Below, piece after piece: positions 30,656 to 35,746 of a DNA stretch of 40,409 bases (position 1 is its first letter; each line of letters opens with the position of its first letter). A program made the position numbers and the translations under genes. The stretch comes from Candidatus Bathyarchaeota archaeon A05DMB-3 (GTDB lineage Archaea > Thermoproteota > Bathyarchaeia > Bathyarchaeales > Bathycorpusculaceae). Location of the stretch: the NCBI GenBank assembly GCA_019685555.1, contig JABFQN010000015.1:1-40409 (forward strand), read 5' to 3'. The notes under the pieces are model-generated. The model was not told the DNA's origin. It searched no databases and saw nothing but the letters and a program-made list of their open reading frames with translations.

Positions 30656-31192
30656 CTATATTTTGTTTAGAACTTCGCTTTCTATTTCTTCTTCGCCTAT
30701 CTTGAAGGTTTCTGGTTCCTCGCGCTTAAGTATGGTTTTTAAGGCTTCAGGAGGGAGTTCTTTTACAAGCCGCAAAATCTCTTTTCTAGCCGCCTCAAAA
30801 TGTTTCACTAGTAAATTCTTTTCTTTATACATGACTCCCGCTAGGGGGCATATCTTCTCCATCTTCAAATACCACTCGATTTTGCCTGTTTGCTTGTTTA
30901 TGTCGAAGGTTACTGGTCCAGCGACGCATGTTTCAGGCTTAACGGGGTGGACAATGCATTTTCGTGTTGCCTTATCATAGAATATGCAGTAGCCGTCTAC
31001 GTTTTCCCTTGGAAATGTGTATTCAGTGTGGACAAACGGGTTTTCTATGGGTATTTTATGCTTTTTCAAGTATTCCTCGATGATTTCCTTTCGCCTTAAC
31101 GTTATGGGCGGTCTAGCGTCCCAGCAGCAGTTGATTTTGCATGTGCCGCAGACATCAAAGAAATTTTTCTGTCTTTCCCCTTCAGTTTGCAT
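30656..31192 (-). CDS. YkgJ-type cysteine-cluster protein
   Basis: The protein of 178 residues has CGTCKINCCWDARP near the start, then GYCIFYDKATRKCIVHPVKPETCVAGP and EKICPLAG, the CxxCxxxCC...C...C..HPxxPxxC pattern of the Fe/Zn-chelating YkgJ family. The ATG at 31192 follows AGGGAGGTT by 10 nt; that binding site is embedded in the end of the GCS2 gene, and in-frame starts at 31225 and 31231 would overlap it. The tight junction suggests co-translation with the GCS2 ligase. The role is unknown; metal supply or redox is possible. Confidence 0.85.
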   Translation of the reverse strand: MQTEGERQKNFFDVCGTCKINCCWDARPPITLRRKEIIEEYLKKHKIPIENPFVHTEYTFPRENVDGYCIFYDKATRKCIVHPVKPETCVAGPVTFDINKQTGKIEWYLKMEKICPLAGVMYKEKNLLVKHFEAARKEILRLVKELPPEALKTILKREEPETFKIGEEEIESEVLNKI

Positions 31193-31208
31193 GTACGCCT
31201 TAACCTCC

Positions 31209-32417
31209 CTAAAAGAAGGGCTCATTATCAATTAGGCTCTTTAAAAGTTTCGAATAAACATCCACTATAGCCTCATTCAAATATGTTTTCTGCGCCCTAA
31301 CTTGGACCTTCTCCCTAATAACTTCTGCGAGGTTTCCATGCTCTATTCGCCTCTGCACTAATGGAAGATAATCTTTCTCTTCAACTGTAGCGTTTTCCCA
31401 GGCAATTTTGAGAAAGTGCTCGCAGACTTGTCTGGCTGTCGGTCCGTTTGGATGCAGCACTTTTGCGTTTAGTCCATGCTTTATGACGGATTTGAAGTCT
31501 TCTGTTAAAAGTCTTGTAGGCATAAGCGGCGCATTTTCCGCCATCAACCCTCTAAGCAAGGCTCTTATGAAACAGCTTAGGGCTACATCCGATTTTATGC
31601 ATTCCTGCTCGTCCATAACCCTTATCTCAACGGCTTTTCTTTCAAATCTGAGGATGACGCCTCTAGAATTAACCCATTCTTTGTTAAGGATGCACTGGTG
31701 GGCTCCAGCTTTAGCCAAATCAGTAGAGTATTTTTCAATAACGTCCTTTCGGTATTGCTTGAAAGAGTAAACGTATTCTGGAACCACATTTCCAGTTATC
31801 GAAGGGATTTCCTTCTGGTTTTCCATGTAAAAATAAAGCCTGTTATCCGCATAATCGCCAAAACATCCTTCATAAATGGGAGAGGAGGCTGAAACTGCTG
31901 GAAGGTAGGCGCAGACGTTTGCAAGCAAATTATGCACTTGAACAGCTTTTTCCTCATCAGAGTATGGAATGTTAAGTTGGAAGCTTTGAATGTTAAGCCA
32001 GCCGTGCTGTTTAAGGTTGAAAATTCGGCTGAAAGCCTCATAAATCTGCCTGTGACGGTGGGGCCAAACTGTGGTTTCCTCAAGCCTTAATGTTGGGTGC
32101 ATTCCCGTCCCCAGAAGCCTAGCCCCATAACGCTTTTGCAAAAGTTCGCCTAGCCTTAAAACTGCCATGTGCATTTTTTCCTCGAAGTTTCTTGGCGACT
32201 TGAAGGGCTTGTTGGGTTTAACCTCTAAAACGTGAAGCTGAAGCTCCTTTCCAAAGGAGAAGTCGCCGAAATCCACAAAGTTTACGATTCGTCCATAAAA
32301 GTCTTTTACGACTTTGTCAACTATGGGTAAAGCCTTCAAGTTTTCATTAACCAATGAGAATTCGTGTTCTGGTCCAAGAACCTCTAGGGTTCTATACGTA
32401 CAGGTAGCCTCTTCCAT
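31209..32417 (-). CDS. GCS2-family glutamate-cysteine ligase-like amidoligase
   Basis: The 402-residue protein is of the carboxylate-amine ligase (GCS2) type: GPEHEFSLVNE (residues 15-25) is the glutamate/metal-binding start, GTGMHPTL, QSFQLNIPYSDEEKAVQVHNLLANVCAYLPAVSASSP in pieces (LNIPYSDE, ASSPIYEG) and EIRVMDEQEC follow. This fold ligates an amino acid to the gamma-carboxyl of glutamate or a similar acid using ATP. The product is unknown; archaea of this kind do not usually make glutathione. It forms a presumptive operon with the methyltransferase upstream (28 nt gap) and the cysteine-cluster protein downstream, opposite the RLAN/ATP-grasp pair. Confidence 0.85.
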   Translation of the reverse strand: MEEATCTYRTLEVLGPEHEFSLVNENLKALPIVDKVVKDFYGRIVNFVDFGDFSFGKELQLHVLEVKPNKPFKSPRNFEEKMHMAVLRLGELLQKRYGARLLGTGMHPTLRLEETTVWPHRHRQIYEAFSRIFNLKQHGWLNIQSFQLNIPYSDEEKAVQVHNLLANVCAYLPAVSASSPIYEGCFGDYADNRLYFYMENQKEIPSITGNVVPEYVYSFKQYRKDVIEKYSTDLAKAGAHQCILNKEWVNSRGVILRFERKAVEIRVMDEQECIKSDVALSCFIRALLRGLMAENAPLMPTRLLTEDFKSVIKHGLNAKVLHPNGPTARQVCEHFLKIAWENATVEEKDYLPLVQRRIEHGNLAEVIREKVQVRAQKTYLNEAIVDVYSKLLKSLIDNEPFF

Positions 32418-32445
32418 TCAATCTGCAAACAACCCAAATATAAGC

Positions 32446-33198
32446 TTATAGCTGAAGCTTTCTGAAGACGTAGATGGCCCAGCTGATTGTTTCTCTCCGC
32501 CATTTAAGATAGATCTCCTTTTCTTTGGCAATTCGCTCCAAAAGTTCTGGAACATCTGGGTCTTCAGGATGAGCTTTTGCATAGTCGTCGGCTGCCAACC
32601 ATTGAAGACTCTCATAATTGTCCCAATCGTCTTCATTGCTTACAATAGTGTAAAGGCACCTTAAGTCTTCACCCTCTCCAACCTTTATGTTGTCCTTGTG
32701 GGTGCCATACTCGTTTCTTCTAAAACCTTCAATTTCCAAATATTCCTTGCAAGGTTCTTTCCGCCAAAAAATTTCGCCGACAATTATTAATCCATCCGGT
32801 TTCGCCATTTCTTTAAGCCTCCTTAACGTTTGTTTATATCCGCTAAAAACCCATGAGGCGCCTATACACATGGCTACATCAAAAAGTTCACCTTTTTCTG
32901 GTTTATATTCGGCTCCATCCATCTCCAAAAATTTGATATCCGCGTTCGGGGCACGTTTTCGGAGTTTTTCTATGCATTCACGTATGCAGTAAGGCGATAT
33001 ATCAACGCCAACGCCGGATATGCCATATAATTCCGCAAGCCTAATGAGAAGTTCACCTTTACCACATGCTATGTCTAAAACTCGTGCCCCTTTTCCCAAA
33101 TTAAGTAGATGGCAGAGGCTTTCCAGCTTTTCCATGCTTATCGGATTGCACACTAAATGCTTTTTGTGAATAATGTCATAATACTTCCATTTATCCAT
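32446..33198 (-). CDS. Class I SAM-dependent methyltransferase
   Basis: The 250-residue methyltransferase has SAM motif I VLDIACGKGELLIRLAE (residues about 40-56), GVGVDISPYC and the later DVAMCIGASWVFSGY, with GLIIVGEIFW for motif III. The N-terminal DKWKYYDIIHKKHLVCNPIS is characteristic of a broad group of small-molecule methyltransferases. Target unknown. It is the first gene of the minus-strand operon with the GCS2 ligase, so methylation of the same product is a reasonable inference. Confidence 0.88.
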   Translation of the reverse strand: MDKWKYYDIIHKKHLVCNPISMEKLESLCHLLNLGKGARVLDIACGKGELLIRLAELYGISGVGVDISPYCIRECIEKLRKRAPNADIKFLEMDGAEYKPEKGELFDVAMCIGASWVFSGYKQTLRRLKEMAKPDGLIIVGEIFWRKEPCKEYLEIEGFRRNEYGTHKDNIKVGEGEDLRCLYTIVSNEDDWDNYESLQWLAADDYAKAHPEDPDVPELLERIAKEKEIYLKWRRETISWAIYVFRKLQL

Positions 33199-33308
33199 TA
33201 AATGCTTCTTCCTTCATCGTTGAGCTCACTATGATTAGGGTTTAGTTGTAAATAGCTTTAGCTTCCACAGTTAATTTTAAATACCTAAATGATGTTAGCA
33301 GTTTTCTG

Positions 33309-34016
33309 TTGTCTGGTGCCTCTTGCGTGCTGGTCGTCTCAAACATAGACCTAAAAACAAACGCGCCTATAACGAAACCATTAACCTTCCTCAAGTCTTC
33401 TGTTAGAGACTTCATTCTCAACGTCAACAACGATTACCGATACATGAAAATTGGGTATTATGTTTCACTTCACGCTGAAATCCTAGGGAACAAGGTGGTT
33501 CCCACAACGGAAAACGCCCTAGACGCCTACAGGCTGCCAGTTATGCTGGTTAGAGCATCAAAAAATGGAATACCTGCAATGCCTTACCTTGTCACGGACT
33601 CGGTGAAGCAGATAATGACTGAGTTCGACTTCCCAATTGTCATGTTTGCCGTTAACCCCTTCTCTTTCAACGGTTTCCAAACAGCCAAAAACAGAACCGC
33701 CCTATACCGGGCTGTTAAAAGCCTAAGCATGAATTACCGCTACGCTGTCTGTGCTCAACCGCTTCGCGGCGAAATGATTTCCGTTAAATCCCTCTTCGGC
33801 GAATGTGCAACCGAACACGGCAACGTGAAGGAAATTGCCGAAAAAGTCTATGAAACCTTTAACCTCCCAGTCTGCAAACTGCATATCCAACACTTCGATG
33901 GAAAGGCTTACCTGTGTGGGCTTCAACCCTTAAAAGTGGAGGAGTTTTCACCATCAGACGTGAATATGATTTCTAAAATAGTTTCTCGGTTTTCCGAGAA
34001 AGGATGGTTTGATTGA
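33309..34016 (+). CDS. RLAN-domain protein (RimK-like ATP-grasp N-terminal)
   Basis: The 235-residue protein contains NNDYRYMKIGYYVSLHAEILG, the signature of the RLAN domain that precedes RimK-like ATP-grasp ligases in bacteria, and VINPF-like MFAVNPFSF, CAQPLRG and GLQPLKVEEF. In bacteria this domain is usually fused to the ligase; here it is a separate gene that overlaps the ligase gene by 4 nt (TTGA), so they are made together. The start is TTG 33309, or GTG 33327; TTTTAAATA at about 33273-33281 fits a TATA box with little or no leader. The biochemical function of RLAN domains is not settled. Confidence 0.75.
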   Translation: MSGASCVLVVSNIDLKTNAPITKPLTFLKSSVRDFILNVNNDYRYMKIGYYVSLHAEILGNKVVPTTENALDAYRLPVMLVRASKNGIPAMPYLVTDSVKQIMTEFDFPIVMFAVNPFSFNGFQTAKNRTALYRAVKSLSMNYRYAVCAQPLRGEMISVKSLFGECATEHGNVKEIAEKVYETFNLPVCKLHIQHFDGKAYLCGLQPLKVEEFSPSDVNMISKIVSRFSEKGWFD

Positions 34017-34891
34017 CGCGGATAGCTTGTTTTGTTGAAAAATACAATTTCACATACTCCGACGAAGCTGAAGCTCTCCAAGTTTTTAGGCATACGGCGG
34101 AACAAATGGGCCACGAGTTCAACTTCATATTTAGGAATGGGCTTTCAGAAATCCCAAAGTATGACGCGGTTTTCATAAGGGCTACAACCGACCCGCTTTA
34201 CACAGCGTATGTGGTCTCAAAAACAGCATGGGAATTGGGCTTAAAAGTTGTTGATGATCCGGTTTCTATTAGGATATGCGCCAACAAAATCCACCAGTAT
34301 AGGCTCTTCGAAAAACTTGATGTTCCCCATATTCCAACATTGTTTTTGAACAAGGACGAGTTTCATCATAGGCAAATAGCTGAAATCTTCAGGCTTTTCG
34401 GAAAACCAGTGGTGATAAAGGCGCCTTACACAAGTTTTTCAAAGTATGTGGAAAAAGCCTCATGCGAGACAAGTTTCCGCGAGGTTGCAAAACGCTTCTT
34501 CAGAAGGTCAGACTACATTGTTGTGCAGAAGTTTATGCCTTCCCGTTTCGACTGGAGGGTCGGCGTCCTCAACGGCGAAGTTCTCTATGTCTGCAAGTAC
34601 ATGATGCCGAAGGGTAAATGGAAACATGGCGTAAAACGCCGCGGAAAACCAAGCTTCATTTGGGGGAGAACCGTCACCCTAAAACGGGATAATGCGCCCC
34701 AAAGGTTGAAGGAAACAGCCATAAAAGCATGTAGTGTTGTTGGAAAAGGGCTTTACGGCGTCGACGTTAAAGAGGTTAATGGCGACTACGTGGTGGTTGA
34801 GGTTAACGATAACCCAAGCATATATAAGGGGCAAGAAGACCTCAGAGACCAGGACGTCTACGAGAAAATCATAAGGTTCCTAGCAGAGTAA
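34013..34891 (+). CDS. RimK-like ATP-grasp ligase
   Basis: The 292-residue protein has ATP-grasp features: YDAVFIRATTDPLYTAYVVS, PVSIRICANKIHQYRLFEKLDVPHIPT, GKPVVIKAPYTSFSKYVE (nucleotide-binding Lys), VVQKFMPSRFDWRVGVLNG, and the metal-binding GVDVKEVNGDYVVVEVNDNPSIY. These place it near RimK/LysX ligases that attach amino acids to carboxylates through acylphosphates. The TTG start is within the stop codon of the RLAN gene. The substrate is unknown; the neighbouring GCS2 ligase and methyltransferase point to a small peptide or modified amino acid (inference). Confidence 0.88.
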   Translation: MTRIACFVEKYNFTYSDEAEALQVFRHTAEQMGHEFNFIFRNGLSEIPKYDAVFIRATTDPLYTAYVVSKTAWELGLKVVDDPVSIRICANKIHQYRLFEKLDVPHIPTLFLNKDEFHHRQIAEIFRLFGKPVVIKAPYTSFSKYVEKASCETSFREVAKRFFRRSDYIVVQKFMPSRFDWRVGVLNGEVLYVCKYMMPKGKWKHGVKRRGKPSFIWGRTVTLKRDNAPQRLKETAIKACSVVGKGLYGVDVKEVNGDYVVVEVNDNPSIYKGQEDLRDQDVYEKIIRFLAE

Positions 34892-35291: not shown

Positions 35292-35699
35292 TTAAGGGTT
35301 TTGAGTTAGACATTTCAGCTCCGTAGACATGCATAATTCACACTTCTCAATGTCAAATGTTGGGTCTAAAGCCTTGTGCATGTTGCATAAAAGTCCTTTT
35401 GCACGGGTGACTCTGCAGATTTCACAAAACTTTAGTGTAAAATCTTTGTGGGATAAGCCTTCCTTTGCCAGGGAATTCGCTAACTCTTCAATTAGCCTTT
35501 TAATTTCTTTGTCTTTTTCTAGGTCTAGGGCTTTTCCCCTCATTTTCTTGTTGTAGAGGCTTACGGCTGGTTGGCTCACGCCCAGCAGTTTTGCTGCTTC
35601 CATCTGTTTTAGGCCGTGTTTTGTCATTAGTTGTCTGGCTAGTGCTGCCCTTACTGGTGGGAGTAGGCTTTTTACGGCGACTTCGCATGGTAACAGCAT
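35292..35699 (-). CDS. Cysteine-rich HTH transcriptional regulator
   Basis: The product of 135 residues (ATG 35699, GAGG about 8 nt upstream; in-frame ATG 35708 and an upstream start at 35738 are alternatives) has a Cro/XRE-like helix-turn-helix: ALARQLMTKHGLKQMEAAKLLGVSQPAVSLYNKK. The C-terminal part has FCEICRVTRAKGLLCNMH and CELCMSTELKCL, six cysteines plus others suited to an iron-sulfur cluster or zinc. Such COG2522-type archaeal regulators are poorly characterised. It is divergent from the flavodiiron operon and a perfect palindrome lies between, so autoregulation and control of that operon by redox or NO is a sensible inference. Confidence 0.82.
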   Translation of the reverse strand: MLLPCEVAVKSLLPPVRAALARQLMTKHGLKQMEAAKLLGVSQPAVSLYNKKMRGKALDLEKDKEIKRLIEELANSLAKEGLSHKDFTLKFCEICRVTRAKGLLCNMHKALDPTFDIEKCELCMSTELKCLTQNP

Positions 35700-35746
35700 T
35701 TTGTTCATTCCTCTGTGTAGTATTTTGGGGAAAGGCATAAATATAC

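Follow-up and report, generated by a model that had tools for sequence, protein, structure and literature searches.

The genes for a YkgJ-type cysteine-rich protein, a GCS2 carboxylate-amine ligase, an RLAN protein and a RimK-like ATP-grasp ligase constitute one functional module, which is well supported by their distribution. Across many archaea the four genes come and go as a set, and it is thus very probable that they jointly make one small molecule or modification. The window (the whole stretch of DNA that was analysed, 40,409 nucleotides) belongs to a genome of 1.46 Mb in 28 contigs in which GCS2 is single copy; in the named collection its relatives are mostly Candidatus Bathyarchaeota MAGs. 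The original prediction had placed five open reading frames here and read them as a dedicated pathway. All five are present at those coordinates (Table 1) with Pfam matches above the curated cut-offs. The pathway reading stands in that four of the genes form one conserved module, but the methyltransferase between them does not follow the others in co-occurrence. No match for this locus was found in viral contigs, and none of the four core proteins (YkgJ, GCS2, RLAN, RimK) matched a PADLOC defence model.

Table 1. Genes and promoter elements of the locus (positions in the window)
Feature	Position	Strand	Pfam family	Remark
YkgJ-type CxxCxxCC protein	30656..31225	-	PF03692	ATG 31225; alternative TTG 31231 gives 30656-31231
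GCS2 carboxylate-amine ligase	31209..32417	-	PF04107	
Probable own promoter of GCS2-YkgJ, TATAAGCTTATATTT	32433..32450	-		overlaps methyltransferase 3' end
Class-I methyltransferase	32446-33198	-	PF13649	
Dedicated promoter element AGTTAATTTTAAATA, 15 bp, BRE/TATA-like	33269..33283	+		44 nt upstream of RLAN start
RLAN protein, 229 aa	33327..34016	+	PF14401	annotated 33309-34016
RimK-like ATP-grasp ligase	34013..34891	+	PF08443	

It was found that 40 of the 163 genomes of the order carry all four genes, 47 carry any of them and 116 carry none. Taken singly, GCS2, RLAN and long YkgJ are each present in 44 genomes and RimK in 43. Every pair among the four co-occurs with a Fisher p of 9e-39 to 2e-32, values that overstate independence because the genomes are related observations. 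Repeated losses and rearrangements of the module provide evidence that does not rest on these p-values. GCS2 and RimK are found together in 41 genomes and apart in 5. Four discordant genomes (G033, G084, G098, G139), each short of one or two genes, have a module gene where a contig ends. The true exceptions are G015, with GCS2 and YkgJ and no RLAN-RimK, G024, with GCS2 alone, and G056, where the ligases are gone and the RLAN promoter and start persist as a relic beside an apparently intact YkgJ. Co-occurrence in relatives, the check proposed with the original prediction, therefore holds for YkgJ, GCS2, RLAN and RimK. This type of GCS2 is restricted to 20 of 398 genomes in an evenly drawn sample of the phylum, and one of these 20, G259 from another family, shows the divergent four-gene arrangement again. 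Within the Asgard phylum the module was observed in 2 of 227 genomes, both of the Njordarchaeum group, as a single co-directional operon RLAN-RimK-GCS2-YkgJ.

The usual order, YkgJ-GCS2 divergent from RLAN-RimK, is kept in about 26 genomes, and in G034, G035, G092, G094, G101, G102 and G147 both pairs are intact but lie far apart. Module relics without an intact ligase exist in four genomes of one genus: besides G056, these are G054, with broken YkgJ, RLAN and RimK and no GCS2, and G046 and G061, where only the RLAN promoter and start are left. The relics in this genus (loci L090, L172, L175, L089) indicate repeated loss. In one group of genera (L070-L085) genes for CofE (F420-0:gamma-glutamyl ligase) and SCP2 adjoin YkgJ, probably as synteny. 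Neither these nor the deoxyhypusine synthases found beside RimK are core members, being not required and absent beside the module in the clade of the window.

Two promoter elements accompany the module. The TATA-like TATAAGCTTATATTT element upstream of GCS2 is present also in relatives devoid of the methyltransferase. Of the 91 genomes of the family, 30 contain the AGTTAATTTTAAATA element, G096 twice and the other 29 once. Judged by coordinates and inspection, 29 of these 31 matches fall at RLAN or at a relic of it; the two remaining ones are G062 C3 and the second match of G096. The reversed pattern, used as a control, gave 1 match, and dinucleotide shuffles of the window gave 0.31 matches at <=2 mismatches. 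One-change variants (AGTTAATCTTAAATA) were found in other relatives, and somewhat similar AT-rich elements precede unlinked GCS2 genes. The RLAN promoter element is thus almost unique per genome and conserved across genera. Since this conservation exceeds what a TATA box alone needs, a dedicated regulator is possible. A shared promoter in the 110-bp divergent gap had been proposed; a promoter element is indeed present in the gap, but it is dedicated to RLAN, and the probable promoter of GCS2-YkgJ lies behind the methyltransferase. Related small HTH regulators are encoded near RimK in the clade of the window (window 35292-35738) and, in another family, near GCS2-YkgJ of G015 (L086 11198-11575), and this protein is a candidate regulator of the module.

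The gap is 110 nt as annotated, but becomes about 128 nt when the start of RLAN is moved to GTG 33327. This start, and not TTG 33309, is most likely the true one, because RLAN of relatives is conserved from this residue onward, several of them have a TGA directly before it and nearly all an SD-like GGTG in front of it. Selenocysteine at the internal TGA, considered for eight relatives, was rejected, as the TGA just precedes the true start. The 4-nt overlap of RLAN and RimK was confirmed (TTGA, 34013-34016), and GCS2 and YkgJ overlap by about 17-23 nt. RLAN had been described as a separate gene here and as ligase-fused in bacteria. Fusion was seen in all four bacterial loci examined (L129-L132, open reading frames of 488-550 aa), so the archaeal split form is real. 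Asgard RLAN frames (L122 7779-8711, L123 830-1846) carry an N-terminal Asp/Ser-rich stretch (DSDSDSD) that is absent in Bathyarchaeota.

The RLAN protein matches PF14401 with 63.6 bits against a cut-off of 25, and sequence search gave no solved relative. Its AlphaFold model has a mean pLDDT of 53.6 and is usable only over about residues 141-229, the N-terminal half being poor. Foldseek with this model retrieved the ATP-grasp ligases PsnB, ArgX, LysX and RimK (E down to 3.7e-6, probability 1.00), with TM about 0.43 and rmsd near 10 A. In an independent profile comparison with the adjacent RimK by hhalign, RLAN scored 74-82% probability over the linker and the start of the ATP-grasp domain, as against 0.1-3% for RLAN or RimK paired with the other module proteins. 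In this register the ATP-binding lysine of RimK (VVIKAP) falls on the lysine-less VVVFAVNPF of RLAN, and the D/E/N metal ligands further along are, by eye, absent as well. With moderate confidence, RLAN is predicted to be a degenerate, catalytically dead ATP-grasp domain acting as a partner subunit. If true, this would explain an unassigned Pfam domain shared with bacteria. The Pfam text on RLAN, based on the amidoligase survey of Iyer et al. 2009, reportedly lists GCS2 and a protein with a metal-sulfur cluster among the neighbours of RLAN.

The catalytic residues of the RimK-like protein (K92, K136, D251, E263, N265), whose loss would have spoken against the original prediction, are retained, invariant and aligned with those of ArgX (3vpb). 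The protein scores best with the RimK, MptN and LysX families, none of which reaches the cut-off, its closest solved relatives are ArgX/LysX and RimK, and the family profile search gave no GshB match. GCS2 has a full-length match to PF04107 (E 8.6e-38) and conserved motifs GPEHE, HVxE, MHP and RVMDEQ; its closest PDB profile match (E 0.001) is too distant for residue mapping. YkgJ scores 33.7 bits against a PF03692 cut-off of 23. Eight cysteines, CxxCxxxCC and four further ones, are invariant in the alignment. A C-terminal extension of about 55 aa, conserved with EPxTFKI, is absent from shorter paralogues of the same genomes, whose open frames mostly measure about 120-190 aa (130-150 being typical) and which match the central part only. 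No solved relative of YkgJ was found, and a structure search with the YkgJ model was empty. The PF03692-type cysteine motif of FliB, with eight conserved Cys, binds [4Fe-4S] (PMC8598068), and by this analogy YkgJ probably binds such a cluster.

As far as sequence can tell, the chances are about even that the module performs two successive ATP-dependent amide ligations leading to a small gamma-glutamyl-type metabolite or cofactor, with YkgJ as a probable [4Fe-4S] partner. GCS2 would link an amine to the side-chain carboxylate of a substrate resembling glutamate, and the RLAN-RimK complex would then attach a second residue to give that product. RLAN, as a degenerate subunit, would position or regulate and take no part in catalysis, and YkgJ, as a predicted [4Fe-4S] protein, would act on or with the product. 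We infer the two-step pathway from the intact RimK residues, the full-length GCS2 match, the literature on linked ligases and the precedent of FliB. The order of steps is suggested by G015 and G024, where RLAN-RimK is absent and GCS2 occurs, in G015 together with YkgJ and in G024 alone. Against the two-step pathway count the distance of GCS2 from characterised members, the lack of a solved YkgJ relative, the poor N-terminal half of the RLAN model and the apparently intact YkgJ without ligases in G056. A more specific form, in which the pseudo-ATP-grasp RLAN is in obligate complex with RimK and together with GCS2 and the Fe-S protein makes a new archaeal cofactor or a thiol/polyamine conjugate, controlled by a dedicated promoter element that is nearly unique in the genome, is possible, though somewhat doubtful. 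The thiol or metal relation suggested in the original prediction is likewise a possibility.

The original prediction counted the methyltransferase as a pathway partner, and the order methyltransferase-GCS2-YkgJ on the same strand in the window and in G100 agrees with a pathway of all five genes. But these are the only 2 of about 35 intact loci that have a methyltransferase between GCS2 and RLAN; every other one lacks it. Close orthologues (52-70%) occur in G100, G104, G039, G036 and G147, and with the gene of the window itself counted, 3 of the 6 are in module-less genomes (G104, G039, G036; Fisher p 0.34). GCS2 moreover retains its own promoter. The methyltransferase was therefore rejected as a module member and is an insertion or bystander, and a five-gene pathway is very improbable. 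In PADLOC, the methyltransferase matches part of the mad2 model only.

The ligases could instead modify a protein, as RimK does with ribosomal S6 and LysX/ArgX with LysW, YkgJ being the obvious candidate for tagging or as carrier. The closest solved relatives of the ATP-grasp protein fit such a role, and YkgJ overlaps or adjoins GCS2 and has the conserved EPxTFKI extension. However, the last residues of YkgJ are unconserved across 24 proteins, with no invariant terminal Glu, which disfavours a LysW-like carrier, and the module has no peptidase gene; this reading is unlikely. Less likely again is glutamylation of an agmatine- or homospermidine-type polyamine supplied by nearby deoxyhypusine-synthase-like proteins. 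Outside the clade of the window, a pair of such genes adjoins RLAN-RimK in about 20 loci; both Asgard loci have a type-II homologue after YkgJ, and GCS2 of G024 is flanked by a type-II homologue and a pyruvoyl arginine decarboxylase. Yet the linkage is absent in the clade of the window, and the only deoxyhypusine synthase in the genome of the window is an ordinary one located elsewhere. The pair is also still found in G054 and G056, in which the module has decayed, so that the linkage may be neutral synteny. Deoxyhypusine-synthase-like genes of types I and II lie by RimK in L060-L085 and at L122 11480-12556, L123 4620-5681 and L087 4587-5495; in L087 the decarboxylase is also beside GCS2.

Bathyarchaeota are among the most abundant groups of uncultured archaea. 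The tight co-inheritance and repeated loss of these four genes, there and in some Asgard archaea, indicate a metabolite or modification yet to be described, and the module offers a small, clear gene set for expression.

Several known systems resemble the module in part. The bacterial RLAN-RimK loci (Hydrogenovibrio, Thiomicrorhabdus) have a homologous RLAN and an ATP-grasp ligase that is 34-37% identical. They differ in that RLAN is fused to the ligase and the partner is a GNAT-peptidase-like protein, with a 370-380-aa protein lacking an NCBIfam match in three of the four loci; tblastn found neither GCS2 nor YkgJ beside them in the four loci. Glutathione-type pathways likewise pair GCS2/GshA with an ATP-grasp ligase, whereas that of the module is RimK/LysX-like and not GshB, and nothing in these pathways corresponds to RLAN or YkgJ. 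Archaeal GshA of Haloferax makes gamma-glutamylcysteine, and a review lists no archaeal GshB-family matches, with GshB-like proteins only in some methanogens (PMC7278568). Membership in the GshA/GshB pathway was rejected, as the ATP-grasp ligase has no GshB match. The LysW-LysX/ArgX carrier systems share the closest solved ATP-grasp fold and, next to the ligase, a small metal protein rich in Cys, but YkgJ lacks their conserved C-terminal Glu and the downstream carrier enzymes are missing. FliB lysine methylase, compared by its published description, shares the cysteine motif and the eight conserved Cys with YkgJ, but the latter has only about 190 aa. According to the literature, an ATP-grasp ligase linked to a COOH-NH2 ligase often carries out ligations in succession, for instance in the glutathione pathway and other small-molecule routes (PMC4431377). 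With its jointly encoded and co-inherited pair of different amide-ligase folds, the module is a variant of these linked-amidoligase systems, a kind already described.
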